This document shows, piece by piece, positions 4,690 to 59,952 of a stretch of DNA of 64,000 nt. Location: the NCBI GenBank assembly GCA_964017235.1, contig OZ024930.1, positions 24,184,614 to 24,248,613 of the forward strand, written 5' to 3'. The notes beneath the pieces are model-generated. The model was not told where the DNA came from. It did not search any database and saw only the letters and a program-made list of their open reading frames with translations. The stretch is from Sabellastarte sp. h YS-2021. Its lineage: Eukaryota > Annelida > Polychaeta > Sabellida > Sabellidae. Every line of letters begins with the position of its first letter. Positions within the stretch are counted from its first letter, which is position 1. A program made the translations under genes and the position numbers.

Positions 4690-5340
4690 ATTTAGCTCTT
4701 AGTCAAACTGAATAACAAGTATAAAATTCAAAGGTGGAAATTAATGTCCATGTCAACAGCTAAGGTCATATCAGGACTGTCTCCTCAATGAACACCATAT
4801 GTCACGAGGTTGAGTACATTCATCATTCCTACAGCACTTGAAGCATTGCTAATGAAATAAAATGCTGTGTAATATCTCTAAATATTTTATTGATCTCAGT
4901 AATTTGAGTTAGAATGCTTTGCTTGAAAATTTTTAGGTTGTTATAAAAGCTTAAAATTTTTTAATTTATTCCGGTTACAAGATCTTATTGACACAAATGT
5001 TATCATAAATTAGACTTTTAATATATGCCAAAAATAATTTACATAAAGGAATAATTCCAATTAAAAATTACAATAAATATTTAAAAAGATATGTTTAAGC
5101 AAAAGTTACAAGCACTTGCGTAAACTTTTTTGATTATTTGCTGAAAATAAGGTCCTTTTTATCAAATTAGCAAATTAATAAAGTACCAAAAGATATAAAG
5201 CTTACACACAATATTGATAATACAGTTTTGCCTAAATAAATTCAGGTTATGAAAATTGTTAAACTTTCAGTTGCAAATAGGTTGAGAAACCATAGAAACC
5301 ATTGCATACTTTGAAATTGATTGTCAAATATTTTTTTCGG
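4690..5340 (-). repeat. Segment shared with 13210-13348 and 19853-20245
   Basis: The order of motifs here (GTCATATCAGGACT, the ATTCATCATT stretch, then GGTTGTTATAAAA and CAAATTCAGGTTATGAAAATT-like text) recurs around both edges of the Penelope-like insertion. It is the upstream part (in plus coordinates) of the older duplicated block that also contains the terminal exon. No gene is seen in it. Confidence 0.7.
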
Positions 5341-5500
5341 GGGGGGGGGGGGATTTCTTAATTAATTTTGAAGAACTAATGCGTATGACTACAAAACTGT
5401 TCCATATCTTTGTAAACACCCTAGAATATTAAAACAGCATAAAATATTAAATGCATTGAAAGTTTTTTAGATTTAAATTCAGTTACAGATCTTTAAGTTC
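5340..5500 (+). repeat. Detached 160-bp fragment of the tandem unit
   Basis: A poly-G run followed by GATTTCTTAATTAATTTTG and the text up to CAGATCTTTAAG repeats 5821-5980. It precedes the tandem array and marks one rearrangement junction. A short second copy of CAGATCTTTAAG sits at 5505-5517, where the array begins. Confidence 0.8.
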
Positions 5501-6330
5501 TGTAACAGATCTTTAAGCTTGAAATTCACTATATTTTGGATTACTTTATATGTGTGTCAAGTGGATATAAATTGCTTTTTACACACATTTTGTGGTAAAT
5601 TCTTATTGGGGTGAACTCAATATAGTGTGTGGATTTGCCATATACTGGATATTGTTCACATCTTGGAGGTAACAGAGTGGGAAATATTTTGAACAGGTGG
5701 ATACATGCATTGAATTGCTGCATATTGGATATTGTTCACATCTTGGAGCAATGCATCACTTTGTATGATGGTGGTGGTGGTAGGGGGTATTTCCAGTGCA
5801 AAATAAATGTAACTAACCTAGGGGGGGATTTCTTAATTAATTTTGAAGAACTAATGCGTATGACTACAAAACTGTTCCATATCTTTGTAAACACCCTAGA
5901 ATATTAAAACAGCACAAAATATTAAATGCATTGAAAGTTTTTTAGATTTAAATTCAGTTACAGATCTTTAAGGTCCACTCAGTAACTATCTATTTTCAAG
6001 AATTTCAAATCCCTTCCTTACCAGATAAAATCATTAACAAATCTTAGCATTTGTTTATCTTTTGAACTTGAAAGATCTATTAACACTCCAACGAAAAAAA
6101 AAACGAAATTACATGTAATTTCAATTTAAGAATGATAAGTTGAAAGAAATTATGAGAGAAAGCTATTCTGAATTAAATGTTAGGAAATAATTTGTTTGAA
6201 ATTCCAAACATCAATTATGTTTCAATTTACATCACTGTCTAAAAGGCAATATATACCCCTGGATATCAGAAAATCATCTTTAAAAATTCATATCTTGTCA
6301 ATGAATGAAACGCCATCTCTACATGTCATC

Positions 6331-6486
6331 TCAACCTCTGAACTTCACGACTACCAGAGCCGCCAGTGTAAACAGCAATATGTTGGATTCAAGCTTGCTT
6401 CCATGATTATTACAGAGCCCTTCTTGGCAGACGCTAACCTCTGATGCTGTGCTAGTCACATCGATTCCTGTAGATCCGACACTGGA
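6331..6486 (-). CDS. Ly6-like gene terminal exon 5C with GPI-type tail (tandem copy 1)
   Basis: Same structure as exon 5B, 3207 bp away: acceptor CTATTTTAG above 6486, 51 codons and a TGA at 6333-6331. It carries CQEGLCNNH and a C-terminal hydrophobic segment suited to GPI attachment. Compared with 5A over the 31 alignable codons, 14 codons change the amino acid and one is synonymous, while framing, acceptor and the LCNNH core are kept. That suggests either rapid adaptive change or relaxed constraint. It is the last recognisable exon of the gene within the window. Confidence 0.7.
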   Translation of the reverse strand, partial: SSVGSTGIDVTSTASEVSVCQEGLCNNHGSKLESNILLFTLAALVVVKFRG

Positions 6487-7792
6487 CTAAAATAGAAAGC
6501 AAACAAGGGATTTATAAGTTGTTGAAATGTGAACTATGTATTACTTAAGTTTATTAGGTAATACTAGTAAATTTAGTTGTTGATCCACATTACGTTATTA
6601 TGATGAACTGTGATTATTAGACTAATTCTTGGTTCTAGCATGACCTGCAATTAATACACTGAAACAGTCACACATCCAAGTACTTAAGTGATGAGATAGG
6701 TACTCGTTACATTGCACCACAAGCCATGAAACTCTGGTGACAAATAAAATGAAAAAGAAAATAAAAACTGATCTCCAGAAGCTTGAGCCTGGCTTGAGCT
6801 CATGCTTAATTATTCCTAAAGCTGTTCTGTGGATGGGCCCATTCCACAATGGTGCTCTTAAAGTGAAATACCTCGACAACTGTTTTAAGAGAAAAAAATA
6901 TACATAGAAAAAGAAATCTTGGTATGTTATAAAATGTGTATTTAATTGCTTTAATATAAACTACATGTTCATTCGAGTGAACATAAAATCAAGCTGTACT
7001 CTGCCGGTGATTTAAAGACAAGTAGGAGGTAAAATGGTCATGAAACAGTCCCTAGATTGTCAAAGTACTAGTTCTTAGCCTGTGTTTCAACACTGGTTTA
7101 TGTTAATTATACTGTTGTACCAAAAGACTGTACTTAAAACATTAATAAAGCACAAGATATTGGACTTCATAGCTTATTCTTCATAATGTATATAGTTTAT
7201 TATTTGACTATAAATTCAAGCTTCAAAACTTTGTATAGATTATTAACATAATACTGTATATACATATTTTATGTTTATTCATTGCTTTTGCCATTGTATT
7301 ATACATGCATGGTGTCTCATCATATTATCATCATTATTAAGCATTGCTTTGGACGCTGGCAGTAACTATCTAATTGATCACATTACAGATATGTTATAAT
7401 ATCAATATTGAACATATTGAACAGATCTGAACATATTTTATCTTCTCTTTTAGGTTATATTGGGTAGTTGGATCTGGTATATTTCTAATTAAATACTTTG
7501 ACAGTCAAGAGCCATATATTACATTGGCCTAGTTATTATCCATACAACCTGGTCCATCTTGACCTGGGGTTCTTCACTGTCCGCTTGAATCTTATGTTTT
7601 TATCTTTTCTTTATTAACTATTACCTTTATTAAATTTAAATTGGTTTTTACATTGTAAATGTGGCAGGTCGCTTTTGAATTATGTTGTTGGCCATTGGTG
7701 GCTGGTGTCCATCGAGGCTCTATGAAATATGGATGTGAACTTGGTTTAAGCTTGAACATGGCTTTTTAATTCACACTGCGAGTCAGCTTTAT

Positions 7793-8122
7793 ATGGGCTC
7801 AGATATGGAGACGTGCCCAATTGCCGGGGTCCCATCTTTGGGACTCATGCGAGTGGCCATGGTTATGTGTCTGCTTCAATTCAAATTCTCTTGGACAGAT
7901 TCCCTCTGTGATATAAACCATATACTGAATCCTGCTGCTGTGGGCATTTCTTCATTGGATCACAGTGGCTGGTTTCGTCGGGTGTCAGATCTTGATCTTA
8001 AAACTATTTTAGTGGGTGCCTCTTTGCATCTTAATCGCCTATTTCATCTCATTTTACTGGTAACTTTTATGCTGTTTAGTCATATTACTCCTAATTTCTC
8101 AATTATGCTTTGCTTCAGATAG
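7793..8122 (+). CDS. Unrecognised 109-residue open frame in tandem copy 1
   Basis: Open frame opening MGSDMETCPIAGV with a hydrophobic C-terminal third (LFHLILLVTFMLF). It is repeated at 11014-11343 with three residue differences in this copy pair. I do not recognise a domain, and no splice or promoter signal was found. Since the copies are recent, conservation of the frame is not evidence of function. It may be a transposon fragment or chance. Confidence 0.15.
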   Translation: MGSDMETCPIAGVPSLGLMRVAMVMCLLQFKFSWTDSLCDINHILNPAAVGISSLDHSGWFRRVSDLDLKTILVGASLHLNRLFHLILLVTFMLFSHITPNFSIMLCFR

Positions 8123-8723
8123 TAAATGGTTTCAAACCAGGCTTCTCTGGGTACATATTGGTCCTTTATTCATAATGTACTCTTCAAAAGCTTCTGGGTT
8201 GGTTTTCAACCAAGTTTTGGCCTTATTTTACTAGTACCTTTACTAGTAGATTTATATAATAAATTACCATTTGCGTTTAAATTATAGACTATTTTAACAT
8301 GTTAAGTTATATACTACCAAACAGTCAATGAATAGTAGAATAAATTATATATTATATATTCATCCTACTTTGGGGTTTTATTACTCTGGTTTTCCCCTGG
8401 GGAATGACAAAATTAAAAATCCAAAAGTTGGGTTCTTACTATCTTCATCTTGTATAAAAAGTGTAAGCAAAATGGCATTGGGTTCCATTGTACTTGTAGT
8501 CCTATGTGATTTCTGTGTGACCCTTTTTTCCTTGTGGGAGATTTTGCCTCGGGCTTAAATCAAGTCATTTATAGCTTTGATTTTTGCTGCAAGTCTGGCA
8601 TCGTTCGTGTGGAGAAAGTTTTCATGGGTTAATATGTGACCTTTATTGTCTTTATCTCATATTGGCTCATAGGTCATATCACTTACTTGGGTAAAATCTG
8701 TTCTTGATATGTTTTTGACTCTT

Positions 8724-11700
8724 GCTTGAAATTCACTATATTTTGGATTACTTTATATGTGTGTCAAGTGGATATAAATTGCTTTTTACACACATTTTGT
8801 GGTAAATTCTTATTGGGGTGAACTCAATATAGTGTGTGGATTTGCCATATACTGGATATTGTTCACATCTTGGAGGTAACAGAGTGGGAAATATTTTGAA
8901 CAGGTGGATACATACATTGAATTGCTGCATATTGGATATTGTTCACATCTTGGAGCAATGCATCACTTTGTATGATGGTGGTGGTGGTAGGGGGTATTTC
9001 CAGTGCAAAATAAATGTAACTAACCTAGGGGGGGATTTCTTAATTAATTTTGAAGAACTAATGCGTATGACTACAAAACTTTTCCATATCTTTGTAAACA
9101 CCCTAGAATATTAAAACAGCGTAAAATATTAAATGCATTGAAAGTTTTTTAGATTTAAATTCAGTTACAGATCTTTAAGGTCCACTCAGTAACTATCTAT
9201 TTTCAAGAATTTCAAATCCCTTCCTTACCAGATAACATCATTAACAAATCTTAGCATTTGTTTATCTTTTGAACTTGAAAGATCTATTAACACTCCAACG
9301 AAAAAAAAAATGAAATTACATGTAATTTCAATTTAAGAATGATAAGTTGAAAGAAATTATGAGAGAAAGCTATTCTGAATTAAATGTTAGGAAATAATTT
9401 GTTTGAAATTCCAAAGATCAATTATGTTTCAATTTACATCACTGTCTAAAAGGCAATATATACCCCTGGATATCAGAAAATCATCTTTAAAAATTCATAT
9501 CTTGTCAATGAATGAAACGCCATCTCTACATGCCATCTCAACCTCTGAACTTCACGACTACCAGAGCCGCCAGTGTAAACAGCAATATGTTGGATTCAAG
9601 CTTGCTTCCATGATTATTACAGAGCCCTTCTTGGCAGACACTAACCTCTGATGCTGTGCTAGTCACATCTATTCCTGTAGATCCGACACTGGACTAAAAT
9701 AGAAAGCAAACAAGGGATTTATAAGTTGTTGAAATGTGAACTATGTATTACTTATTACTTATTACTTAAGTTTATTAGGTAATACTAATAAATTTAGTTG
9801 TTGATCCACATTACATTATTATGATGAACTGTGATTATTAGACTAATTCTTGGTTTTAGCATGACCTGCAATTAATGCACTGAAACAGTCACACATCCAA
9901 GTACTTAAGTGATGAGATAGGTACTCATTACATTGCACCACAAGCCATGAAACTCTGGTGACAAATAAAATGAAAAAGAAAATAAAAACTGATCTCCAGA
10001 AGCTTGAGCCTGGCTTGAGCTCATGCTTAATTATTCCCAAAGCTGTTCTGTGGATGGGCCCATTCTACAATGGTGCTCTTAAAGTGAAATACCTCGACAA
10101 CTGTTTTAAGAGAAATAAATATACATAGAAAAAGAAATCTTGGTATGTTATAAAATGTGTATTTAATTGCTTTAATATAAACTACATGTTCATTCGAGTG
10201 AGCATAAAATCAAGCTGTACTCTGCCGGTGATTTAAAGACAAGTAGGAGGTAAAATGGTCATGAAACAGTCCCTAGATTGTCAAAGTACTAGTTCTTAGC
10301 CTGTGTTTCAACACTGGTTTATGTTAATTATACTGTTGTACCAAAAAACTGTACTTAAAACATCAATAAAGCACAAGATATTGGACTTCATAGCTTATTC
10401 TTCATAATGTATATAGTTTATTATTTGACTATAAATTCAAGCTTCAAAAGTCTGTATAGATTATTAACATAATACTGTATATACATATTTTATGTTTATT
10501 CATTGTTTTTGCCATTGTATTATACATGCATGGTGTCTCATCATATTATCATCATTATTAAGCATTGCTTTGGACGCTGGCAGTAATTATCTAATTGATC
10601 ACATTACAGATATGTTATAATATCAATATTGAACATATTGAACAGATCTGAACATATTTTATCTTCTCTTTTAGGTTATATTGGGTAGTTGGATCTGGTA
10701 TATTTCTAATTAAATACTTTGACAGTCAAGAGCCATATATTACATTGGCCTAGTTATTATCCATACAACCTGGTCCATCTTGACCTGGGGTTCTTCACTG
10801 TCCACTTGAATCTTATGTTTTTATCTTTTCTTTATTAACTATTACCTTTATTAAATTTAAATTGGTTTTTACATTGTAAATGTGGCAGGTCGCTTTTGAA
10901 TTATGTTGTTGGCCATTGGTGGCTGGTGTCCATCGAGGCTCTATGAAATATGGACGTGAACTTGGTTTAAGCTTGAACATGGCTTTTTAATTCACACTGC
11001 GAGTCAGCTTTATATGGGCTCAGATATGGAGACGTGCCCAATTGCCGGGGTCCCATCTTTGGGACTCATGCGAGTGGCCATGGTTATGTGTCTGCTTCAA
11101 TTCAAATTCTCTTGGACAGATTCCCTCTGTGATATAAACCATATACTGAATCCTGCTGCTGTGGGCATTTCTTCATTGGATCACAGTGGCTGGTTTCGTC
11201 GCGTGTCAGATCTTGATCTTAAAACTATTTTAGTGGGTGCCTCTTTGCATCTTAATCGCCTATTTCATCTCATTTTACTGGTAACTTTTATGCTGTTTAG
11301 TCATATTACTCCTAATTTCTCACTTATGCTTTACTTCAGATAGTAAATGGTTTCAAACCAGGCTTCTCTGGGTACATATTGGTCCTTTATTCATAATGTA
11401 CTCTTCAAAAGCTTCTGGGTTGGTTTTCAACCAAGTTTTGGCCTTATTTTACTAGTACCTTTACTAGTAGATTTATATAATAAATTACCATTTGCGTTTA
11501 AATTATAGACTATTTTAACATGTTAAGTTATATACTACCAAACAGTCAATGAATAGTAGAATAAATTATATATTATATATTCATCCTACTTTGGGGTTTT
11601 ATTCCTCTGGTTTTCCCCTGGGGAATGACAAAATTAAAAATCCAAAAGTTGGGTTCTTACTATCTTCATCTTGTATAAAAAGTGTAAGCAAAATGGCATT

Positions 11701-11944
11701 GGGTTCCATTGTACTTGTAGTCCTATGTGATTTCTGTGTGACCCTTTTTTCCTTGTGGGAGATTTTGCCTCGGGCTTAAATCAAGTCATTTATAGCTTTG
11801 ATTTTTGCTGCAAGTCTGGCATCGTTCGTGTGGAGAAAGTTTTCATGGGTTAATGTCTGACCTTTATTGTCTTTATCTCATCTTGGCTCATAGGTCATAT
11901 CACTTACTTGGGTAAAATTTGTTCTTGATAGGTTTTTGACTCTT
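8724..11944. repeat. 3.2-kb tandem repeat, copy 2
   Basis: Second full copy, 3221 bp long. The extra 14 bases come from expansion of a TTACTTA motif near 9750. It contains terminal exon 5B and the second copy of the plus-strand frame at 11014-11343. Confidence 0.95.
9538..9693 (-). CDS. Ly6-like gene terminal exon 5B with GPI-type tail (tandem copy 2)
   Basis: Minus-strand acceptor CTATTTTAG, then 51 codons in phase 0 and TGA at 9540-9538. The peptide contains SVCQEGLCNNH followed by a hydrophobic run (ILLFTLAALVVV) and a short KFRG end, as expected of a GPI-anchor signal. It lies in the second copy of the 3.2-kb tandem repeat and encodes the same protein as 5C; the two exons differ at two positions, both synonymous. 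Relative to 5A the first Cys of the CYC motif is Ser, so a domain using this exon has nine cysteines and an unpaired partner for Cys 7. Whether it is used, or is a pseudo-exon, needs transcripts. Confidence 0.7.
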   Translation of the reverse strand, partial: SSVGSTGIDVTSTASEVSVCQEGLCNNHGSKLESNILLFTLAALVVVKFRG

Positions 11945-12248
11945 GCTTGAAATTCACTATATTTTGGATTACTTTATATGTGTGTCAAGTGGATATAAAT
12001 TGCTTTTTACACACATTTTGTGGTAAATTCTTATTGGGGTGAACTCAATATAGTGTGTGGATTTGCCATATACTGGATATTGTTCACATCTTGGCGGTAA
12101 CAGAGTGGGAAATATTTTGAACAGGTGGATACATACATTGAATTGCTGCATATTGGATATTGTTCACATCTTGGAGCAATGCATCACTTTGTATGATGGT
12201 GGTGGTGGTAGGGGGTATTTCCAGTGCAAAATAAATGTAACTAACCTA
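11945..12248. repeat. 3.2-kb tandem repeat, truncated copy 3
   Basis: The first 304 bases of the unit again. Identity stops at AACTAACCTA, where copies 1 and 2 continue with GGGGGGGATTTC but this copy changes to CCCCAAGC. That fixes the right edge of the array at about 12248. Confidence 0.92.
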
Positions 12249-13348
12249 CCCCAAGCAATTTGTAATAGAGTTCCTACAGTAAATTTGGAAGCTGAGAATA
12301 CAGTGGTGGACTTCAACCTTTGTTAAATTACAATTGCGAGTTTTTTTTTTGTTAAAAGTGTCCAATATCTTTCACTATTGGCCACTTGGTGATTTTGACC
12401 ATATAGGGAAGTCTTTTTAGCACATTACAAAAGAAACCCTTTTACATTTATTTCAACTAAAATGATCATAAAAACCGAAAAAAATTAACACCGGGAATAT
12501 AGAAATGAAAAATAATGTTTTTAAACAACATCTTAAAATAATAATCAAGGAAGAGGTGTAATTTAAATAGGTTAACAGCCTGGTAAGTGTTCAATATAGG
12601 AAAATAATGGGCTCTTGACTCAGTCCCTTCGGGCCCTCGTAGACATTCCGTTATTAAATCAGAAAATTTTATTCTGGTGTGACAATATTACCACAGTGAA
12701 TGCATTTACTTGACATAAATTGAGAGATCCTTGGAGTACAGCCTGTGTTAGGAACATTTGGTATTTCACAAGTGGTTACAGTATTGACCTTAAGGTCAAA
12801 CACCCACAAAGTAAATATCGCTATTAGGATGATCCCTTATCTCGATGGAATGTGTATAATGCTGAAAACTCTAATCCTGTTAAATACGTTCAGTCCTGAG
12901 AGTGGGAAGATGTTTTTTTCTGATACATAATACCCTTTCTTTATTAATTTCTTTCAGGCTATCTCTAAAGATTTTGAAATTGGGCCCACATTAGGACTGC
13001 CAGCAGTGTATATATCGTAATTACTGTCCTCCCTTGCTTTATAATTTTTCAGTGACTCTACCTTGTACTTGGTTAAATAATTTTGCTCCCATCTTAAGAC
13101 CAGGGGCTAATGCATTGGATCTTGATATCTCCCCCCCCCCCTTTCTGGTTTTTATGACCATTGTTTTGCCATACACAGAACAGACAGTAGTGCTGTACAA
13201 AAGCCATCAGAACTCAAATTGAATACCAATGATAAAATTCAAACTTGGGAATTTATGTCCCTGTCAACAACTAAGTTCATATCAGGACTAACTCCTAAAT
13301 GAATAACACATGTTATCACGAGTTCGTGTACATTCATCATTTTCCAAC
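12249..13348. other. Intronic stretch with no recognisable gene
   Basis: AT-rich with a poly-C run at 13131-13141. From about 13210 it matches the older duplicated block (compare 4690-4860), and the match resumes at 19853 on the far side of the Penelope-like insertion. Confidence 0.6.
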
Positions 13349-13366
13349 ACTTTGGGCATTGGTAAT
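13349..13366. repeat. Target-site duplication, left copy
   Basis: ACTTTGGGCATTGGTAAT, repeated exactly at 19835-19852. The related uninterrupted sequence at 4835-4853 shows the target without the insertion. Confidence 0.9.
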
Positions 13367-14791
13367 AAAATAAGTGAATGTGTAAGTGAAATGCAAACTC
13401 CTAGCCTTATAATCTCTCTGTATGATTGATTATTTCGAATCTCTTTGGTATAGTATTCTCATCAGAGGCACAATGGGGGTGGGCCAATTTTCCCCTATAA
13501 GGTGGGAAAAACGGCTCCGTCAAGCTCCTCCGGATAATGGGAGTTGCTCCTGTGCTCCTGCGGAGCAAAGGAATATTTTTTTAATTTTTGAGATTTTTTG
13601 TTTTAATAAAAATCTCTAGGTAAGAAAAGGTAGTTTGTGTAATAAACAGGGGTTAATTTATTTTTTAAAAAGCCCCTTGGTCCTATTTTTTACTCAGGAA
13701 AATCCTAATGGGGATCTACACTGAGAGAGTTGGGGATCGTTAATACACAAATTTCCAGTGGAAAACAGCTAAATATGTGGTTATAATTTGATGAATAAGG
13801 GGATTTAGATTAAAATCCCATGTAGATTAATTATATTTAATCCTAATGACTCCAGTTGCAGAAATGTTTTATTTAAAAAGAAAACATAAGTGTGGTTCAT
13901 AGTGTACTGAATTAGTGCATTATGGCGCATTTAGTCAATAAGTATGAATGCAAAAGTCCACAATATGGGTTTAAAGGTTTGAATAAAGTGTGATTACTGA
14001 ATTCAACTGGAAATACACAAATGTGAGTGTTGCACGTCCAGGGGAGTCTTAGTTGTGGACTGGACACCCACAGTTGTCTCAAACTAGTGGATGGGTAAGT
14101 GTAGTCAAGGAGATTATACACAACTGACTGGCGAATTCCACATGTGTGTAGGAATTGCATGCCCCTGTTGTGTAAGACAGGAGTTGACTATACTGGAGTA
14201 TTTAAAAAAGCTGTTGTGAAATCAAGTTAAGATTCCAGCAAAAATGTTTAGATACAAATAATAACAAAATAAAATAACATGAGTTATAATATAGTGTTTA
14301 ATACCAAAATAAATGGCATAAAAAATGGTTAATGTTCATGCACAACTCAGTTTTAACTACAAATGAGCGAAATATTTACCCCATTATTTATAGGGAAAAA
14401 AAAAGGTTTTTTGTCTGGAGGCAAAATACCTGAGGGAAAATCAGAAAAAATCAGTGAAATAGGTAGGAAATTGTCCTGCCAATTTTAAAATTTACTAAAA
14501 TTGTATAGTTGATCACTTTATATGCTAGAACAACCGGGTTTTCTAAAAGTATGTGTCTTTCAAAAAAAGTCAATTTCAACAGTGAATTGAATGTAAGATT
14601 TATATATCCGACAATACTTTTTTTAAAAAAGTAAGTAATCACAATGTCCAGACAGTATGAGTAGAAGACTGAGAATTGTAGACACAGTCACCATCAGTTC
14701 CAGAATTCTGCACTGGGGGATGGAAGTGGGTCTTCTGAGGACCATACAGAAAGAGTGTCTGGTGGTTCAGCACCTCCATTCTGCTCTATGT
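13363..14791 (-). repeat. Penelope pLTR, left inverted arm
   Basis: About 1.43 kb that is the reverse complement of 14989-16420 with only scattered mismatches and short homopolymer length differences. Its outermost four bases overlap the target duplication. It carries the minus-strand hammerhead at 13404-13469. Confidence 0.96.
13404..13469 (-). ncRNA. Hammerhead ribozyme, minus strand (left arm)
   Basis: Mirror of the motif at 16314-16379, with all core bases kept: on the minus strand CTGATGA at 13465-13459, the GAAA box, and the three stems. Predicted cleavage falls between 13408 and 13407. It would act only in antisense transcripts of the element. Confidence 0.85.
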
Positions 14792-15080
14792 GGAAAAACC
14801 CATCATGGTCTCCACTGGCACATCTCCTCACATCAAGATGCAGGATTACTATGTTATCCCCTTGGAAGAGTCTCCTCTGGCCCACTCGCCAAGAACTCCT
14901 CTCATGACACCAAGAGAGAGCAAGACTGTTTTGTTTGAGGGACTATCGCCAATTCAGTGCTATTACACATCTGAATTCAGACACTCGTACATAGAGCAGA
15001 ATGGAGGTGCTGAACCACCAGACACTCTTTCTGTATGGTCCTCAGAAGACCCACTTCCATCCCCCAGTGCAGAATTCTGA
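14790..15080 (+). CDS. Unrecognised 96-residue frame across the pLTR spacer
   Basis: Open frame that starts at the inner end of the left arm, crosses the 197-bp spacer and ends in the right arm (MEKPIMVSTG near the start, EPPDTLSVWSSEDP in the arm). The spacer is richer in G+C than the flanking arms and reads like protein. No family is recognised. It may be a piece of captured host or element coding sequence, or chance. Confidence 0.3.
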   Translation: MEKPIMVSTGTSPHIKMQDYYVIPLEESPLAHSPRTPLMTPRESKTVLFEGLSPIQCYYTSEFRHSYIEQNGGAEPPDTLSVWSSEDPLPSPSAEF

Positions 15081-16420
15081 AACTGATGGTGACTGTGTCT
15101 ACAATTCTCAGTCTTCTACTCATACTGTCTGGACATTGTGATTACTTACTTTTTAAAAAAAAGTATTGTCGGATATATAAATCTTACATTCAATTCACTG
15201 TTGAAATTGACTTTTTTTGAAAGACACATACTTTTAGAAAATCCGGTTGTTCTAGCATATAAAGTGATCAACTATACAATTTTAGTAAATTTTAAAATTG
15301 GCAGGACAATTTCCTACCTATTTCACTGATTTTTTCTGATTTTCCCTCAGGTATTTTGCCTCCAGACAAAAAAAACTTTTTTTTCCCTATAAATAATGGG
15401 GTAAATATTTCGCTCATTTGTAGTTAAAACTGAGTTGTGCATGAACATTAACCATTTTTTATGCCATTTATTTTGGTATTAAACACTATATTATAACTCA
15501 TTATGTTATTTTATTTTGTTATTATTTGTATCTAAACATTTTTGCTGGAATCTTAACTTGATTTCACAACAGCTTTTTTAAATACTCCAGTATAGTCAAC
15601 TCTTGTCTTACACAACAGGGGCATGCAATTCCTACACACATGTGGAATTCGCCAGTCAGTTGTGTATAATCTCCTTGACTACACTTACCCATCCACTAGT
15701 TTGAGACAACTGTGGGTGTCCAGTCCACAACTAAGACTCCCCTGGACGTGCAACACTCACATTTGTGTATTTCCAGTTGAATTCAGTAATCACACTTTAT
15801 TCAAACCTTTAAACCCATATTGTGGACTTTTGCATTCATACTTATTGACTAAATGCGCCATAATGCACTAATTCAGTACACTATGAACCACACTTATGTT
15901 TTCTTTTTAAATAAAACATTTCTGCAACTGGAGTCATTAGGATTAAATATAATTAATCTACATGGGATTTTAATCTAAATCCCCTTATTCATCAAATTAT
16001 AACCACATATTTAGCTGTTTTCCACTGGAAATTTGTGTATTAACGATCCCCAACTCTCTCAGTGTAGATCCCCATTAGGATTTTCCTGAGTAAAAAATAG
16101 GACCAAGGGGCTTTTTAAAAAATAAATTAACCCCTGTTTATTACACAAACTACCTTTTCTTACCTAGAGATTTTTATTAAAACAAAAAATCTCAAAAATT
16201 CAAAAAATATTCCTTTGCTCCGCAGGAGCACAGGAGCAACTCCCATTATCCGGAGGAGCTTGACGGAGCCGTTTTTCCCACCTTATAGGGGAAAATTGGC
16301 CCACCCCCATTGTGCCTCTGATGAGAATACTATACCAAAGAGATTCGAAATAATCAATCATACAGAGAGATTATAAGGCTAGGAGTTTGCATTTCACTTA
16401 CACATTCACTTATTTTATTA
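14989..16420 (+). repeat. Penelope pLTR, right inverted arm
   Basis: Reverse-complement partner of the left arm. It ends 17 bases before the ORF1 start codon and carries the plus-strand hammerhead at 16314-16379. An RNA through both arms would form a hairpin of more than 1.4 kb. Confidence 0.96.
16314..16379 (+). ncRNA. Hammerhead ribozyme, plus strand (right arm)
   Basis: Complete hammerhead core. Stem I pairs GCCT (16314-16317) with AGGC (16376-16379). The core is CTGATGA (16318-16324). Stem II pairs GAAT (16325-16328) with ATTC (16343-16346). GAAA follows at 16347-16350. Stem III pairs ATAATC (16350-16355) with GATTAT (16369-16374). The cleavage-site nucleotide is A16375, so the predicted cut lies between 16375 and 16376. 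Every invariant position is present. Hammerheads are established features of Penelope-like terminal repeats. The cut would leave a 61-base leader in front of the ORF1 ATG at 16437. Confidence 0.9.
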
Positions 16421-16436
16421 TTTCTACTGGGTAATC

Positions 16437-17213
16437 ATGAGTGCAAGTGAAACAGGCCTCAGCTCTGCCTTGAAGGACCTAGATGTACAATCAGGATCAG
16501 CCTTCAACACTCCTGCATCAGGTACTCCCATACCTGCCCACACTCTGAGCAGTGAAACAGTCAATCTCCTTGATGAAGTCGCTAGTAGACTGAACAAAGA
16601 AAGGATGACTGCCAGCAGATCTGCCAAAAGGAAGAGAACTAGCTCCCCCTCCACTGACAGAGAGAGCTCCAGTAGGGACAGATATCCCCCAGCTGCCAAG
16701 AGCCACTATTTCAAGGCTAAGAACATGTACAGGAAAAAATTAGGAGTAGCCACTAGCCTCCACCATGTGAAGAACCAACTTAAAGAGGGGAACTTCACTC
16801 GTATCTGCAATTTCAGATGCTCCCCACCTCAGTCTGAGAATCAGGATTTCAAGACCAAGTGGACAAAAATAGTCAGCAGCTGCAAGCGAGAACTCACTCT
16901 TCTCTGGGTAGAACAACTGAACCACAAGTACTCTGTTGTCAAAACCAGCCTACAAGCTGAACTAGCAGAACTCCAAAAGATACTCAGCACAGAACAGTTT
17001 TCTGAGATCAAGAACAGCCTTGACAGCAAATACAAAGATGCTGCCAAAACCAAGGTGACCAAAAAGCTTCTATCAAAGGAGAACAACCCACCTCAAAATA
17101 AGAGGAGGAGAGCCCAACCTAGACGCAAACAGCAGAGGTCAGGACCAAACAGGAGACTAACAGAATATAATGAACTCTTAACAGGACTGGCTAAACTTAT
17201 TAAATCGAAATAA
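16437..17213 (+). CDS. Penelope-like element ORF1 (basic protein, unknown function)
   Basis: 258 codons from ATG 16437 to TAA, beginning 17 bases after the right pLTR arm. The N-terminal 90 residues are Ser/Thr-rich with a basic patch SAKRKRTSSP. A central region (about 90-200) has FKTKWTKIVSSCKRELTLLW and predicted helices with regular Leu spacing. The C-terminus carries a strongly basic stretch KRRRAQPRRKQQRSG that looks like a nuclear or RNA-binding signal. No catalytic motif is visible. A similar upstream ORF is known from some Penelope-like elements, where its role is not settled. Confidence 0.75.
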   Translation: MSASETGLSSALKDLDVQSGSAFNTPASGTPIPAHTLSSETVNLLDEVASRLNKERMTASRSAKRKRTSSPSTDRESSSRDRYPPAAKSHYFKAKNMYRKKLGVATSLHHVKNQLKEGNFTRICNFRCSPPQSENQDFKTKWTKIVSSCKRELTLLWVEQLNHKYSVVKTSLQAELAELQKILSTEQFSEIKNSLDSKYKDAAKTKVTKKLLSKENNPPQNKRRRAQPRRKQQRSGPNRRLTEYNELLTGLAKLIKSK

Positions 17214-17368
17214 ATTATGTCAGTCACAGCCAATTAACCCACCATGGTTATACCAATTCAGATATTATTGAAAAAAATAAAATGTTATTCATTCACCTGT
17301 ACTCCTTCACTCCTTAGGAGCCAAGCGGTTCCAAATATCTCACCTTAGCTTATTCCATCCTATCCACA

Positions 17369-17881
17369 TTGTTCATGATGGAAAGGATTAATTACCTTGG
17401 CATCTTGGACACTATCAAAGAGGAAGCCAAATTGGCTCCCCCTGGGATTCTCCCCAAGGGAAAATCTATGGACAGCTATATTGGCCATACAGTGGTTAAC
17501 TTATCTGATATCCAACTTACTCCTGATCAATACTCAGCTCTGGAGAAAGGCCTCACCTTCTGCCCAACCCCTGGTCCACCAGACAAATCAAAAATCTGGT
17601 CTGATTTCAAAGACTTCTATAGAAGACTTTGTCTCAAATACCACTTCCACAAGGATAATGGCCATTTTGATCACCTCACCCCTGAGGAGGCAGATCTGGT
17701 AGGATTCCTAGCCCACAATTTGGATGAAAGTGAAAACCCTTATAAGGATATTCACTCTCAGTTCAAAAACAAGAGCAATCGGAAACCTCCAAACACCCAC
17801 CAGTCCTTAGAAGTCTTTTCAAGAGCCTTCAAAGCAGCCTCCTCAAGGCCCAACCAAAGGCATTTAGGAAAAGCAACTTGA
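17369..17881 (+). CDS. Penelope-like RT, N-terminal part (frameshifted)
   Basis: 170 codons from ATG 17369 (a second ATG follows two codons later). The sequence has the usual Penelope N-terminal region: LSDIQLTPDQYSALEKGLTFCPTP around residues 50-70 and a QSLEVF stretch near 145-150. The true protein should continue into the RT frame that begins before 17878. The present frame instead ends at TGA 17879-17881 after about 20 residues that look out of frame. A one-base loss in the TTTT run at 17816-17819 explains the break. The coding part is therefore the 5' portion of one RT gene, not a separate protein. Confidence 0.85.
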   Translation: MFMMERINYLGILDTIKEEAKLAPPGILPKGKSMDSYIGHTVVNLSDIQLTPDQYSALEKGLTFCPTPGPPDKSKIWSDFKDFYRRLCLKYHFHKDNGHFDHLTPEEADLVGFLAHNLDESENPYKDIHSQFKNKSNRKPPNTHQSLEVFSRAFKAASSRPNQRHLGKAT

Positions 17882-19785
17882 CTAAAAATCAAAAAGAGGG
17901 TCTCAGGACAATATCTCTTAACCCAGAGATTGTCATCAAGAAGGCTGACAAAGGCTCAGCCATTGTAGTCATGAACACTAAGGATTACCTTAGGGAAGGC
18001 TATCGCCAACTAAGTGATCCTGACTTCTATTGTAAGCTGGACCATGACCCAACTCCTACTATAAAGGAAAAAATTGATCAAACCCTGACCCAAATGAGGG
18101 CAAAAGGACTGATCACTGAAGACAATTTTGACTACCTCAGTATTGATAACTTCAGTGAAGGAAGATTTTATCTTCTCCCCAAAATTCATAAAAAGGGTGT
18201 CCCAGGGAGACCCATCTGCAGTTCTGTAAACCACCCCACAAGCAGAATTAGTAGATTTGTTGATGAGCACATCAAAGGATATGTACCTAAAACAAAATCC
18301 TACATTAGGGACACTCAAGATTTTATCACAAAATTGAAATCCCTAGGTAGAATCCCTGAAGGTGCCATATTATGCACCTTGGATGTATCCTCTCTCTACA
18401 CCAACATTCCTAATCAAGAAGGAATATTAGCTGTAGCTGAAAAGTTGAGATCTGACCCAAGTAAAACACCAATTACTAAATTCATTCTTGATCTACTTTC
18501 ACTAGTCCTTCACAATATGAACTTTGAGTTCAATGGAGAACACTACCTCCAAACTGGAGGCACAGCCATGGGTACTTCTGTGGCCCCAAATTATGCCAAT
18601 CTGTTTATGGACAGGTTCGAAACAAAAGCCCTAGAGGGTTACCACCTAAAACCACTAACATGGTTACGGTTCATTGATGATATCTTCATGATATGGACAC
18701 ATGGAGAAGACTCTCTCAAAGAATTTATCACATACCTAAATTCCCTCCACTACTCTATTAAATTCACACATGAATTCAGTAGAACCTCCATTAACTTTCT
18801 GGACACTACAGTGAAATTCGGTGAAAATAGGGAATTAATAACCACCCTATTTAACAAACCCACCGATACTCATTTATACCTCCACTATACTAGTGCCCAT
18901 CAGACTAGCATCCTCACCAAAGGACCGTTTAGTCAATACCTCAGACTGAGACGAATATGCACTTTGGATGAAGACTTTAAACATAATGCCAGAAATCTGA
19001 CTGGATACTATATCAAAAGAGGATACCCCCTCAAATCACTGAAAAACCACTTTCAGAGAGCCCATTCCTTCAGTCAAGACCAACTACTAGAAGTCAAAAC
19101 CAAAACAGATTCAATAAGACCTGTAATGGTTACCAACTTCAGCCCTAAAAATCCTAATGTCACTGCATTAATTCGTGACAATTGGAACATTATCCAAAAT
19201 ACAGAGGAACTTCACACCATTTTCCCTGAATTACCAATTATGGGGTTCAGAAGGCTCCCAAACCTAAGGGACCAACTTACATCAGCGAGGATTAGTTACC
19301 CTCCCATAGAGAGACCCATCAGACAAAGAGTCTTTACACCAGTTTGTACCAGACTGGGGAAATGCACATACTGCCCAAGAATTAAAAGATTGGACTCTAT
19401 CACAAGCTTCTCCACCAAAAGATCTTTTCAGTGCAAGAATCTCCCACCTAAACACCAAATCACATGTGAACTCAGTAATTTGGTGTACCTTATCAACTGT
19501 TCAAAATGTGGCCTCCAATACATAGGGGAGACCAAAAGACCACTGAGACAGAGAATGTATGAACACTCTAGGAGTGTTCAAAACATTAAACTTCAGAGTT
19601 CTACCCCAGTGGCTAGACACTTCTCTAACCATGGCCATTCTGCTAGGAATATGGAGTTCTCAGTGCTCCATTGGATGGGGAGTGATAGTGACCCAAATGA
19701 CACTGTAGGTCGCAGAGACCAAGAATTATTTTACATTTGGGCATTCCCCACCCTCCAACCAGCAGGCATTAATGTATTTGTGTGA
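17821..19785 (+). CDS. Penelope-like reverse transcriptase with GIY-YIG endonuclease
   Basis: Main RT frame, open from the frameshift point near 17820 to TGA 19785; residue numbers are counted from 17878. RT blocks: FYLLPKIHKKGVPGRPI at 97-113, LDVSSLYTNIP at 168-178 (Asp 169), QTGGTAMGTSVAPNYANLFM at 225-244, FIDDIF at 265-270 (Asp 267 and 268), and FLDTTV at 307-312. The C-terminal GIY-YIG nuclease has VYLINC near 536, QYIGET near 548, the RPLRQRM helix with its Arg, and a late Glu in RDQELF. CTYC and the CSKC motif suggest a metal site. These are the hallmarks of endonuclease-bearing Penelope-like elements, which prime reverse transcription at the cut target. The 3' untranslated part is only 49 bases. 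Confidence 0.95.
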   Translation, partial: KSLQSSLLKAQPKAFRKSNLTKNQKEGLRTISLNPEIVIKKADKGSAIVVMNTKDYLREGYRQLSDPDFYCKLDHDPTPTIKEKIDQTLTQMRAKGLITEDNFDYLSIDNFSEGRFYLLPKIHKKGVPGRPICSSVNHPTSRISRFVDEHIKGYVPKTKSYIRDTQDFITKLKSLGRIPEGAILCTLDVSSLYTNIPNQEGILAVAEKLRSDPSKTPITKFILDLLSLVLHNMNFEFNGEHYLQTGGTAMGTSVAPNYANLFMDRFETKALEGYHLKPLTWLRFIDDIFMIWTHGEDSLKEFITYLNSLHYSIKFTHEFSRTSINFLDTTVKFGENRELITTLFNKPTDTHLYLHYTSAHQTSILTKGPFSQYLRLRRICTLDEDFKHNARNLTGYYIKRGYPLKSLKNHFQRAHSFSQDQLLEVKTKTDSIRPVMVTNFSPKNPNVTALIRDNWNIIQNTEELHTIFPELPIMGFRRLPNLRDQLTSARISYPPIERPIRQRVFTPVCTRLGKCTYCPRIKRLDSITSFSTKRSFQCKNLPPKHQITCELSNLVYLINCSKCGLQYIGETKRPLRQRMYEHSRSVQNIKLQSSTPVARHFSNHGHSARNMEFSVLHWMGSDSDPNDTVGRRDQELFYIWAFPTLQPAGINVFV

Positions 19786-19834
19786 GCTGTAGTGTCATCT
19801 TACTGCACCCCGTAACCCAGGTGCCACCAATTTT

Positions 19835-19852
19835 ACTTTGGGCATTGGTAAT
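19835..19852. repeat. Target-site duplication, right copy
   Basis: Exact copy of 13349-13366; it marks the right end of the Penelope-like insertion. Confidence 0.9.
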
Positions 19853-20575
19853 GAAAAACATTGTGTGTAATTTAGCTGAATGTTTTATTGCTATCAGCAG
19901 TTGGATTAAGAATGCATTGCTTGAAAAAAAATAGGTTGTTATAAAACCATAAAATTCAAATTTAATAAAGTTACAATATCTTATTAACACAAATTAAAAC
20001 AAATTTTAAAACGTCTTTTAAGCAAAAAGTTAAAAGCACTTGGTTACACTTTTTCTGATTATCTACTAAAATTTGTTTAAACAAATACGTAAATTAGCAA
20101 GAGACATAAAGCTCACATGCAATAGTGATAATGTAGTTTTAGCAACCAAACAAATTCAGGTTATGAAAATTCTTTAACTTTCCGTTGCAAATAGGTTGAA
20201 AAACCGTTGCGTATTTTGAAATTGATTGTTAAATATTGCTTTTCTGGTTTTCTTAATTAACTTTGAAGAACTGTTGCATAGGATTACAAAACTGTTCACA
20301 TGTATTTGCAAACACCCTAGAATAATGAATGAGCATAAAATATTATAAAATTGGAAGTTACTTAGATTCAAATTCAGTTACACCTTTTAAGGTCCACTCA
20401 ATAACTTTTCCTTTTTCAAGAATTCAAAATTCCTTCCTTACCGAAAAAGGCTGGCTTCTATGATTATTACAGAGGTCGTCTTGACAGTAGCAAATCTCTG
20501 ATTCTATGCGAGTCACATCCATTCCAAGAGATTCGAAACTGGACTAAAATAGAAACTAAACAAATAAGTGATTTA
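19853..20575 (-). repeat. Diverged older copy of the terminal-exon block
   Basis: This matches 4860-5340, then 5340-5500/5821-6025, then 6372-6510, in order but with many substitutions and a deletion of about 345 bases. It holds exon 5A. Together with 13210-13348 it is one duplicated block interrupted by the Penelope-like element. Confidence 0.85.
20424..20543 (-). CDS. Ly6-like gene terminal exon 5A (CYC..DLCN, no GPI tail)
   Basis: Minus-strand acceptor TTCTATTTTAG above 20543, followed in phase 0 by 39 codons and a TGA at 20426-20424. The peptide SEICYCQDDLCNNH is the textbook Ly6 C-terminal signature and supplies Cys 8, 9 and 10, so with exons 1-4 the domain has all ten cysteines. After NNHRS the sequence departs from the other terminal exons. 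About 345 bases present in copy 5C, including the hydrophobic GPI tail, are absent here, and a GGTAAGG follows that could act as a donor. This copy is nearest to exon 4. It is either a secreted isoform end, an internal exon spliced onward, or a decayed copy. Confidence 0.72.
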   Translation of the reverse strand, partial: SSFESLGMDVTRIESEICYCQDDLCNNHRSQPFSVRKEF

Positions 20576-23067: not shown

Positions 23068-23152
23068 CTTAAGAGCGTCACTGGGGTCAATGCAAGAATC
23101 CAAAGTTACATTTTGACATCCCCTTGCAACCAACTCCACATCAACGGTAATC
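23068..23152 (-). CDS. Ly6-like gene exon 4: RGC finger segment
   Basis: Minus-strand exon of 85 bp with a strong acceptor (TCTCTTTTTTCAG) and a GTATTG donor at 23067-23062. It completes a Gly codon and encodes 28 residues. These include ELVARGCQNVTLDSC, which gives Cys 6 and 7; RGC before the last finger is typical of Ly6/Quiver proteins. NVT is a potential N-glycosylation site. It ends after AAG in phase 0, matching the phase of all three candidate terminal exons downstream at 20.5, 9.7 and 6.5 kb. The alternative frame from the acceptor hits a stop at once. Confidence 0.85.
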
Positions 23153-28238: not shown

Positions 28239-28306
28239 CCTAGATATATGACTGTCATGTCTCCAACCTCTTTGTAGCAGCTGCCAGAACATTCTTCAGT
28301 GGAAAT
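28239..28306 (-). CDS. Ly6-like gene exon 3: CSGSCYK finger segment
   Basis: A 68-bp minus-strand exon: acceptor ATTGTAG just above 28306, then 22 codons and two bases. The peptide ISTEECSGSCYKEVG carries the C-x3-C-x-K motif that Quiver/Sleepless-type Ly6 proteins have between the first and last fingers. It enters in phase 0, as exon 2 requires, and leaves after two bases, as exon 4 requires (GG plus G makes Gly). The donor is the weak sequence GTCTGT rather than GTAAGT. That is the least convincing splice site of the gene, but no other nearby GT keeps the phase. It lies about 1.1 kb from the large tyrosine-recombinase retroelement. Confidence 0.77.
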
Positions 28307-29854: not shown

Positions 29855-29918
29855 TGCCTATTTATACTTTCAGTTTATAAAACAGTGACTATATTGTGAA
29901 AATATCATGTTATTAATC

Positions 29919-30856
29919 ATGGTTAAGACGTTTGATTGTGTAAAATGCGGAGGAAACCATGCACAACCAATCAACCATAATTGCAAAGAACTAAGATCAC
30001 CTGCTATGGAACCTGAAGGGGACACAAATTCCTTAATTTTAAAAGAACTTAAAAATCTGTCCAGCAGAATGACATAAATGGAAGACAAGGTCCAGTCGTT
30101 GGAAGTCACTAGATCTCCCAGTGTCAGTAACAGCAGCAGATCACCAGCATCCAGTATATCCAGCAGAAGGCACCAGGAAGATCAAGAAGAGGACCTAATA
30201 CTGCCATCATTGCACAGCCTCTGGACCTCCAAAGATATACAGGACCAGGTGGATGCTCGGATCGGGGATCTTCAAGCAGCCCCTGAAAAAGGCAGGTTAA
30301 AGTCCCAACATGCTGGATCTGAAACTGTATTTGTCAAAAGAGAGGTACCTTGGCCTCAAAACTTTATTCTAGGGGGTAGTACTAGGGCCAGAGTTAGTTA
30401 TGACAGTCTTTCCATGGGGCAATGGGTGTCAGGCTTTGCAACTATCATAAAGGACAAAAAAGATCCAAAAATTAAGCAAAACATGTTAGAATACCTCTCC
30501 GAGATAATGGAAGATAGCCATGATTTTGGTTGGGGTGTGGCAAAGCGGGCCCATGCTGTCCTCCTCTGCAGGCGGAGGAGGGCAGGCTGGATTGGTCTGA
30601 TACCATTAAAATTGATAGGGTTCGACGTGCTTATGCCCACAAGGTACAAAACATAAATCCTAGTGTACTTGGCACAAATTTAGGCAAAGACAACCCAACA
30701 CCCTGTAAGTTCTTCCAAAAAGTAACTTGTTCACATAAAGTTGATCACGAAAATAACAATCATTTGTATCTTCATGTTTACAGCTTCTGCTTTGCAACAG
30801 GCAAAAAGTACCCCCATGTACTAAACGACTGCAAAAAGAATGTAAAAAACGAGTAA
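29919..30856 (+). pseudogene. YR retroelement gag-like ORF (broken)
   Basis: Starts at ATG 29919 with MVKTFDCVKCGGNHAQPINH, a short Cys/His knuckle also found at the right end of the window. A TAA at 30075-30077 interrupts it; it reopens at once and runs to about 30570 (WPQNFILGGSTRARVSYDSL, QWVSGFATII, MLEYLSEIMEDSHDFGW). A frameshift in the GGCGGAGGAGGG stretch then moves the frame to one reading WSDTIKIDRVRRAYAHKV. It ends with a Cys/His cluster CKFFQKVTCSHKVDHENNNH...CFATGKKYPHVLNDC at 30856. These blocks are characteristic of gag proteins of YR retroelements. Confidence 0.8.
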
Positions 30857-30919
30857 GGCACTGTTTAGGCTTTGCAGTGCCTAAACAAAAAGTTTAAAGT
30901 GTAAAAATACAAAAGTCGG

Positions 30920-31225: not shown

Positions 31226-31439
31226 TCTGATAAAAATTCTGATAAAAATTTGTGGAATATGCAACAATGGAAAGGACAAAATAAACTTGGAATAGCATTG
31301 ATGAACATACGTAAGTCACTTGCTCACTAACTTCTGCTTTTGATTGAAATAATGAAATCCCTAAATAATGTTATTTCCTTTAACAATGTTTTCTCTTGAC
31401 TATGAAAGGGGCTGAAAATCAAAAATTAGATCACTTATT

Positions 31440-40010: not shown

Positions 40011-40101
40011 TGAAACACCCCACCTGGGTTCGAGTCCCCCATTATGCCCTCAACATGAACTGGGATATTTAATTTCAGGTACTTCCCCTCAGATTCAAAT
40101 A

Positions 40102-52872: not shown

Positions 52873-53003
52873 TGTTTTGAAGTCATCGCCATGTTTGTTG
52901 CAGTTGGGGTCACTGTCAAATTGCCTATTGAGAATAGAATCGATACTTGGATATTCAGTGTCATAATTGACGTACTGACATGAATGGCACGTCACAGCTT
53001 CAG
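52873..53003 (-). CDS. Ly6-like gene exon 2: N-terminal half of the three-finger domain
   Basis: On the minus strand a clean acceptor (pyrimidine-rich tract ending TTTTAG, adjacent to 53003) precedes 131 coding bases, and a consensus donor GTAAGT follows at 52872. The exon completes an Ala codon and adds 43 residues. These start EAVTCHSCQY and include DPNCN, giving Cys 1, 2 and 3 of the Ly6 fold with the standard C-x2-C opening. No frame other than this one fits the splice phases. The flanks are intronic on both sides. This is one of the best supported coding segments in the window because domain motif, acceptor, donor and phase all agree. Confidence 0.87.
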
Positions 53004-59894: not shown

Positions 59895-59952
59895 CATTAT
59901 AAACCGTCAGCAACAACACAAAAACAAAAGCACACAGAGTATTGAGTAACAT
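59895..59952 (-). CDS. Ly6-like gene exon 1: signal peptide
   Basis: The minus strand reads ATG at 59952-59950, then 19 codons starting MLLNTLCAFVFVLLL and one extra base. A donor GTGAGC follows at 59894-59889. The segment is a typical short hydrophobic signal peptide with an A at position -3 of the ATG. The leftover G joins CT at the start of exon 2 to form an Ala codon, so the cleavage region reads VYN-AEA-VTC, a plausible signal peptidase site just before the first domain cysteine. The link to exon 2 crosses a 6.9-kb intron and rests on phase and protein logic only. The true transcription start was not identified. Confidence 0.74.

Follow-up and report, generated by a model that had tools for sequence, protein, structure and literature searches.

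Secreted three-finger proteins, including snake toxins, are thought to have derived from membrane-anchored LY6 proteins, perhaps by duplication of the last exon and loss of the anchor. Such a route has been put forward before: for the secreted three-finger toxins of snakes, duplication of the C-terminal exon followed by anchor loss is presented as the likelier origin in the passages on gene history in Koludarov et al. 2023 (PMC10421932). The sections of a review of LU domains (PMC6600238) that treat gene structure and disulfides describe a three-exon gene as typical of the family, not required, and call the 7–8 disulfide bond indispensable in single LU domains, where its deletion gave recombinant protein that was invariably unstable and aggregated. 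The LU domains named in these sections as lacking the 7–8 bond are that of the TGF-beta type II receptor and, in proteins with several LU domains, the N-terminal ones.

Here we describe an LU gene, M, on the minus strand of an annelid genome (Sabellastarte sp.), in a stretch of 64,000 nucleotides that we call the window. M has five exons, the last of which is present in three copies, 5A, 5B and 5C. The locus would represent a step from anchored to secreted protein caught part-way, with duplicate exons, a deletion, a common poly(A) signal and paralogs with an undivided exon close by; because these lie together, the order of events is readable and testable.

Gene M and its paralogs

M and its paralogs U, D and E form a tandem cluster of four genes on the same strand, spanning ~325 kb. 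Five exons are present in M, U and D, and exons 2–5 were found in E. In M, exon 1 (59895..59952, minus strand, like all exons below) carries the start codon and the signal peptide MLLNTLCAFVFVLLLTVYN, and exons 2 (52873..53003), 3 (28239..28306) and 4 (23068..23152) encode Cys 1–3, Cys 4–5 and Cys 6–7 of the LU domain, exon 4 ending in phase 0. Exon 1 has a paralogous exon 1 in U and D, and in all three of these genes the hydrophobic leader constitutes exon 1, which places the signal sequence on a separate exon; exons 2–4 have counterparts in U, D and E. Exons 1–4 of M are intact: they are free of stops and frameshifts, all their splice sites are retained and 7 of 7 cysteines are kept.

Outside leader and tail, the mature proteins of U, D and M ending in 5A have ten cysteines in LU order, and exons 2–5 of E also encode ten; from this order we infer bonds 1–5, 2–3, 4–6, 7–8 and 9–10. 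Asn directly follows the tenth Cys (LCN or RCN) in U, D, E and all three terminal exons of M. The best Pfam match of M-5A, U and D is QVR (Quiver, PF17064), at 22.8, 23.0 and 17.4 bits, respectively, none of which reaches the gathering score of 27.3; the 5A form matches it with an E value of 2e-4, whereas the 5B form matches neither it nor any other family at E values up to 1. Comparison with solved structures gave one match, at E 1.1, which we attribute to chance.

Three terminal exons with complementary losses

The preliminary description held that the three terminal exons all begin after a TTTTAG acceptor in phase 0, and all three do follow TTTTAG and continue exon 4 in phase 0. Exon 5A (coding part, 20424..20543) reads CYC..LCN (Cys 8–10) up to a new TGA stop and, in agreement with its earlier portrayal as CYC..DLCN without a tail, encodes no hydrophobic GPI tail. 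Exons 5B (9538..9693) and 5C (6331..6486) encode identical protein, SVC..GLCN followed by a GPI-type tail, as expected from the report that they keep the tail and replace the first Cys of CYC with Ser; the residue replaced is LU Cys-8. The ten- and nine-cysteine products that had been predicted are likewise found, with ten mature cysteines when M ends in 5A and nine when it ends in 5B or 5C (the raw counts of 11 and 10 include one signal-peptide Cys), so that the 5B and 5C forms, with nine, fall outside the ten-Cys definition of an LU domain. Because Cys-8 is lost, the nine-Cys form orphans Cys-7 from exon 4. The size of the deletion in 5A needs correction from about 345 bases: compared with 5C, a net 363 bases are missing, as position 94 of 5A aligns with position 94 of 5C and position 102 of 5A with position 465 of 5C. 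The deletion removed the tail codons, the stop and ~300 bases of 3′UTR. In 5B and 5C, the alignment shows that the old stop codon differs by two bases, which extends the protein by two residues (RG) beyond the tail.

The terminal exons are not chance reading frames, because they can be aligned to the exon 5 of U, D and E. In each of these three paralogs, the sole exon 5 detected has both the CYC motif and the tail, with sequence read downstream to ~7 kb past D and 3 kb past E. Because the paralogous exon 5 has both parts, the losses in M are complementary ones that followed duplication of its last exon and 3′UTR. By these alignments, the terminal exon and 3′UTR of M are shown to have been duplicated. 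A deletion took the tail from 5A, where Cys 8-9-10 remain, and 5C, later copied as 5B, kept the tail and lost Cys-8. Exons 5A and 5C share an extra derived codon (LCNNH against LCNH). Their grouping has a support of 0.993 when only the exon is used and of 1.000 when the UTR block is included. Exons 5B and 5C are not independent: they lie in adjacent units of a 3.2-kb tandem duplication, 98.4% identical, at 9028..12248 (5B) and 5821..9027 (5C). Separate origins of the three exons are rejected by this tandem copy, by the codon common to 5A and 5C and by the Jukes–Cantor (JC) distance of 0.19 between the 3′ flanks of the latter two. Intron homology to U stops ~33 bases upstream of 5A and ~41 bases upstream of 5B and 5C, an extent that gives a weak hint that 5C may be the original copy.

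Searches with tblastn across 264 kb (the window and 100 kb to either side of it) gave no additional clear exon 5 beyond those of U and D, either with the exons of M or with those of U and D as queries. No spliced retrocopy was seen in a genome-wide search with the 5A protein (of 25 candidates, 7 matched, and no match covered more than 52 of 123 residues). A Penelope-like retroelement, with a reverse transcriptase (RT), a sub-cut-off GIY-YIG match and a long inverted repeat, is inserted on the plus strand at 13349..19852, beyond the poly(A) signal of 5A, and has a direct repeat of 18 bases at its flanks.

Processing signals and rates of change

The poly(A) signal AATAAA of 5A (19884..19889, minus strand) has its counterpart at the homologous place in 5C (4886..4891, minus strand), U, D and E. 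It is absent from 5B, as the 5B tandem unit starts inside the 3′UTR and the conserved signal was not copied; other AATAAA occur in 5B from +1047 onward. That 5A might be dead through deletion of its signal was considered and rejected, the signal being found at +655. Upstream of 5A, an additional AG (20556..20557, minus strand) lies 12 bases 5′ of the acceptor AG and would read FLF-stop if used; of the 14 acceptors listed, that of 5A is the sole one with another AG fewer than 18 bases away, the runner-up being exon 3 of M, at −19.

A donor-like GTAAGG in phase 0 (TCG|GTAAGG; 20436..20441, minus strand) lies 102 bases into 5A. Its score of 8.78 exceeds those of 10 of the 12 real donors in M, U and D. 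Donors as good as this one, which was found after the fact, occur at 0.57 per kb on the same strand, so that ~0.024 would be expected by chance in the interval from the last Cys to the stop of 5A, one third of them in phase 0. GTAAGG also occurs in 5B and 5C, at +465 with a score of 10.57, and was probably already present in the ancestral 3′UTR, from which it follows that its in-phase position in 5A may be a one-in-three accident.

Rates of change were compared after polarising differences against U, D and E. First, 7 differences in the finger fall on the 5A branch and 10 on the 5C branch, with 2 unclear. The ICYCQ motif, chosen for the test on the ground of its invariance in U, D and E, has 0 changes on 5A and 5 on 5C, 4 of which alter the protein. 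The Cys-8 motif of 5C changed faster than the 5C UTR, the changed sites being 5 of 15 in the motif and 28 of 453 in the UTR (Poisson P 0.003). A local template for this clustered change was sought in the window, where exact words of 8–14 bases recur only at 5B and 5C themselves. Second, the 3′UTR of 5A accumulated 55 polarised changes against 28 for that of 5C (binomial P 0.004). Within 5A, the finger shows no significant slowing relative to the UTR (7/90 against 55/453, P 0.28), and dN/dS between the 5A and 5C fingers is 1.8, near neutral with a bootstrap range of 0.62–8.6. Third, the frame and hydrophobic tail of 5C are still open; at the 5C-branch rate, a neutral exon would be stop-free with a probability of 0.75, indels ignored. 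Finally, exons 2–4 of M have dN/dS values of 0.37–0.61 against the paralogs, with their seven cysteines all kept. Unique changes in these exons number 10 in M to 5 in U with one outgroup and 11 to 5 with another (P 0.13 for the larger), and exons 1–4 show no significant acceleration relative to the paralogs.

Interpretation of the locus

We tentatively favour exon duplication with complementary loss, caught part-way, in which M acts mainly via 5A, over a settled two-way switch. The ancestor in the LU tandem cluster would have had a single terminal exon coding for finger 3 and the GPI tail. The last exon and 3′UTR of M were then copied, after which 5A came to be without the tail and 5C without Cys-8, with 5C later copied as 5B. 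M would now work, most likely, mainly through the proximal 5A, which has a conserved poly(A) signal of its own, yielding a secreted ten-Cys protein. Were 5A skipped, with transcripts ending in 5B or 5C, the product would be a GPI-tailed protein with an unpaired Cys-7, expected to fold poorly; both of these exons are probably in decay or little used. A main product from 5A is supported because the ICYCQ motif is unchanged there, the conserved AATAAA is kept and exons 2–4 are constrained. Several observations count against it: the faster change of the 5A 3′UTR than that of 5C runs in the wrong direction if 5A is the copy in use, the extra AG upstream could divert splicing to a stop, the 5A finger is not significantly slowed, the 5C frame and hydrophobic tail are still open, and some LU domains exist that lack the 7–8 bond. 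The constraint on exons 1–4, moreover, may predate the losses.

The preliminary description offered two readings, a real switch between isoforms or the breakage of a gene through duplication. The comparison with three paralogs upholds duplication, with complementary loss, and a choice of last exon would indeed switch anchoring and disulfide pattern in the encoded proteins. A clean two-way functional switch is weakened, because Cys-7 is unpaired, 5B is without the conserved poly(A) signal and an extra AG precedes 5A. The in-phase donor inside 5A, which does not figure in that description, would permit a third transcript type. We consider it possible, though rather unlikely, that exon 4 joins either 5A (secreted, ten Cys) or 5B/5C (GPI-anchored, nine Cys) with both proteins functional. 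Such a switch would fit the three in-phase acceptors, the conserved poly(A) signal kept by both 5A and 5C, the slower 5C 3′UTR and the still hydrophobic tail of 5B and 5C. Precedents are given in the relevant passages of the sources, for human lynx1, with GPI and secreted forms made by alternative splicing (PMC4971505), for human LY6K, with a duplicated third exon and isoforms called apparently functional (PMC10421932), and for certain LU domains that manage without the 7–8 bond (PMC6600238). Against it, Cys-7 is left partnerless in the nine-Cys form, and the 5B form is without a Pfam family where the 5A form finds QVR.

It is unlikely that M is instead dying, with every terminal exon defective in a different way, no useful isoform and the intactness of exons 1–4 a matter of time lag. 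The tail lost from 5A and the extra AG ahead of it, the lost Cys-8 and shifted stop of 5B and 5C, the missing conserved signal of 5B and the near-neutral finger dN/dS are all consistent with such decay, as are the somewhat greater number of unique changes in M than in U and the pseudogenised redundant third exons of snake toxin genes, described in the part of PMC10421932 that deals with them. The undamaged exons 1–4, with their full set of cysteines and without significant acceleration, argue against it.

Quite unlikely, in our estimate, is that 5A has turned internal, exon 4 being spliced to 5A and the 5A donor, in phase 0, to 5B or 5C; the chained product would have the full ten-Cys domain from 5A, a linker and the GPI tail, making 12 Cys with none orphaned, and SVCQEGLC in the linker could form one additional bond. 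Serial use would account for the motif kept in 5A, for the tail and open frame kept in 5B and 5C and, the 5A 3′UTR being intron, for the faster change of that UTR; the strength of the donor and the few expected by chance also speak for it. The loss of Cys-8 would then be no defect, because Cys-7 is already paired by 5A, and might be tolerated or even favoured, because mispairing with Cys-7 is prevented. It is likewise quite unlikely, however, that the losses reflect such a new exon order, with a 12-Cys GPI-anchored form bearing an extra small loop and a secreted ten-Cys form ending at 5A: 5A retains its own poly(A) signal, and GTAAGG is probably an ancestral 3′UTR element whose phase may be accidental. 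If true, a membrane/secreted switch would have been made from one duplicated exon, used in series.

Comparison with known systems

With the anchor and a core disulfide on separate exon copies, M offers a clear test for the function of an LU domain that is one bond short. The likenesses and differences that follow are to known systems as presented in the passages on gene structure, isoforms and disulfides of the papers cited. As in the snake toxin and LY6 genes (PMC10421932), the exon for the C terminus was duplicated and the membrane anchor lost in one copy; unlike them, M has five exons, lost its anchor by a 363-base deletion and not by a new stop, and has anchored copies without Cys-8. In the snake genes, the extra exon copies precede the original (PMC10421932). 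The five exons of M, U and D also differ from the three-exon gene given as typical of the family (PMC6600238). Human LY6K resembles M in a third exon duplicated twice, with several isoforms, of which only some are secreted, but all three of its isoforms are called apparently functional (PMC10421932), whereas the anchored forms of M are without a core Cys. Human LYNX1 and SLURP2 similarly provide a GPI-anchored and a secreted LU protein from one locus by alternative splicing; these two proteins are ~32% alike, differing far beyond one terminal exon, and have ten invariant cysteines (PMC4971505). Domain I of uPAR and other N-terminal LU domains are likewise without the 7–8 bond, but within multi-LU proteins (PMC6600238); the 5B and 5C forms of M would each be a lone LU domain, in which Cys-7 is kept and Cys-8 is absent.

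Gene M and its candidate last exons

Within the 64-kb window (contig positions 24184614–24248613 of a 1.79-Gb genome), gene M occupies the minus strand as exon 1 (59952–59895), exon 2 (53003–52873), exon 3 (28306–28239) and exon 4 (23152–23068), followed by three candidate last exons on the same strand, 5A, 5B and 5C, which start at 20543, 9693 and 6486, respectively. Every junction is GT-AG and the reading frame is unbroken. The encoded protein carries a signal peptide, and its cysteines follow the order seen in an LU (Ly6/uPAR, three-finger) domain. As the preliminary description held, M joined to 5A has 10 mature cysteines without a hydrophobic tail, and M joined to 5B or 5C has 9 with the tail ILLFTLAALVVVKFRG; the deletion in 5A, put there at about 345 bases, amounts to a net 363. 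The serine substitution in 5B and 5C hits the eighth LU cysteine (Cys-8), whose partner, Cys-7, is encoded by exon 4; the disulfide scheme in the excerpted text of PMC6600238 is 1–5, 2–3, 4–6, 7–8 and 9–10.

In 5C and 5B (6331–6345 and 9538–9552, minus strand), the ancestral stop codon is gone through an apparent two-base deletion, which adds Arg-Gly past the tail and leaves four residues after the hydrophobic run versus two in the neighbouring paralogs U, D and E. Intron 2 holds a 98-aa open frame (51261–51557, minus strand) with no Pfam match at E 0.01.

Origin of the exon copies

U, D and E share the contig and strand of M, with exon 5 at window coordinates 100337 (U) and −92824 (D) and at contig position 24010546 (E). 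All five exons were located in U and D, with splice phases identical to those of M, and exons 2–5 in E, exon 1 being absent from the stretches read. The sole exon 5 detected in each of the three, with sequence read past it for about 7 kb in D and 3 kb in E, carries both the tail and CYC, the motif containing Cys-8; a single two-part exon is therefore very probably ancestral.

An extra codon (LCNNH), not in U, D or E, is common to exons 5A and 5C, which form a clade with support of 0.993 for the exon and 1.000 when the UTR block is added. The duplication begins about 33 bases upstream of the exon and extends to about 1.8 kb past its start, with a 5A–5C flank divergence of 0.19, compared with synonymous distances of 0.54–0.79 among M, U, D and E in exons 2–4. 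Over 3.2 kb, 36 substitutions and a single 14-base gap separate 5B from 5C, and their coding parts have two differences, both synonymous. The paralogs settle the history: the last exon was duplicated, 5A lost its tail and 5C its Cys-8, in either order, and the 5B/5C duplication followed. The locus combines duplication and complementary loss with intact upstream exons. The short stretch 12249–13213, which separates the 5A duplicon from the 5B unit, matched none of the intron segments compared.

The window also carries mobile elements. A Penelope-like element (13349–19852) lies in the downstream flank of 5A, with a reverse transcriptase frame (17746–19785), a below-cut-off GIY-YIG match, a 1.43-kb inverted repeat ahead of the frame (13363–14791 and 14989–16420, 99.2% identical) and a flanking 18-base direct repeat, ACTTTGGGCATTGGTAAT, at 13349 and 19835. 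Intron 2 contains, on the opposite strand, a LINE-type retroelement (33654–37478) with endonuclease and reverse transcriptase domains, which by eye seems to interrupt another element, with parts of it on either side. Retroelement pieces at 29870–31330 and 37937–41021 match RNase H and integrase (SAM-like) weakly, short of the cut-off; our guess is a DIRS/tyrosine-recombinase type. A frame start resembling theirs by eye occurs near 63900–64000.

Processing signals

An AATAAA stands at the homologous place of a conserved block downstream of U (+1535 from exon start), D (+1090), E (+1729), 5A (+655) and 5C (+1596); the poly(A) signals of 5A and 5C are conserved. The block is absent downstream of 5B because the tandem unit starts inside the 3′ UTR, which makes A and C two complete terminal units with B between them.

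Among 14 acceptors compared (exons 2–4 of M, U and D, and U5, D5, 5A, 5B and 5C), only that of 5A has a second AG less than 18 bases away. It precedes the real AG by 12 bases, and splicing to it would encode FLF and then a stop. Exon 5A also contains a candidate donor, TCG/GTAAGG, at +102 in phase 0, which outscores 10 of the 12 bona fide donors in M, U and D under a hand-entered scoring matrix. GTAAGG recurs at +465 in 5B and 5C, within the 3′ UTR, and thus probably predates the 5A deletion that moved it near. The predicted exon 4–5A–5B (or 5C) product keeps the frame, has 12 cysteines and combines a complete LU motif with a GPI tail.

Rates and competing readings

Compared with U, D and E, exons 2–4 of M show dN/dS of 0.37 to 0.61, with 7 of 7 cysteines kept. 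M exceeds U in unique changes (10 to 5 and 11 to 5) and stands at 7 to 7 and 10 to 13 against D, none of these relative-rate tests being significant (chi-square ≤ 2.25, P 0.13). For the exon 5 finger, 5A and 5C differ by dS 0.15 and dN 0.27, a ratio of 1.8 (bootstrap range 0.62 to 8.6), so the pair, taken together, shows no visible constraint.

Polarised against U, D and E, finger changes number 7 in 5A and 10 in 5C (2 ambiguous), compared with 55 and 28 (13 ambiguous) in the UTR block (Fisher P 0.06). The ICYCQ motif has five changes, all on the 5C branch (5/15 sites versus 28/453 in the 5C UTR, Poisson P 0.003; motif versus UTR split, Fisher P 0.006): 5A has kept the motif and 5C has lost it. 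The 5C finger outside it matches its own UTR rate (5/75 sites, P 0.80), and the whole 5A finger is not significantly slowed (7/90 versus 55/453 in its UTR, P 0.28); selection on the whole of either exon is not proved. The open 5C frame is little proof, since it would stay open by chance with probability 0.75, indels ignored.

Tentatively, we favour the reading that M works mainly through 5A, transcripts ending there yielding a secreted 10-cysteine protein as the main product; 5B or 5C used without 5A would leave Cys-7 unpaired. According to PMC6600238, single LU domains deleted for the 7–8 bond are invariably unstable and aggregated; as exceptions it names some multi-LU proteins as well as the TGF-beta type II receptor. 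The roughly twofold excess of polarised changes in the 5A 3′ UTR (19842–20424) over the homologous 5C block (4842–6330; 55 versus 28, binomial P 0.004) speaks against 5A as the main terminal exon and points to the UTR of the 5C unit as the one that would be in use. This split would be expected under a true two-way switch between 5A and 5B/5C endings, which we consider rather unlikely. That M is a dying gene is unlikely. Chained splicing, with 5A as an internal exon ahead of 5B or 5C, fits the same UTR split, because of which we moved it from very unlikely to distinctly unlikely and the favoured 5A reading from nearly even to tentative.

Comparison with known systems

The nearest Pfam family is Quiver (PF17064), with a match below the Pfam cut-off. 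This match and the Penelope-like element give the impression that the animal may be an invertebrate. Among the open-licence papers listed in our searches, we found no description of this locus or of an LU gene splitting anchor and Cys-8 between exon copies. According to PMC4971505, alternative splicing of human lynx1 yields both a GPI and a secreted form. In human LY6K, the third exon is duplicated and the isoforms are apparently functional, only some being secreted (Koludarov et al., PMC10421932, in part). Of two scenarios for the origin of secreted three-finger toxins, the same authors consider likelier the one in which the C-terminal exon was duplicated and one copy lost the anchoring region, a route that M, with its duplicated C-terminal exon and the anchor lost from one copy, fits.
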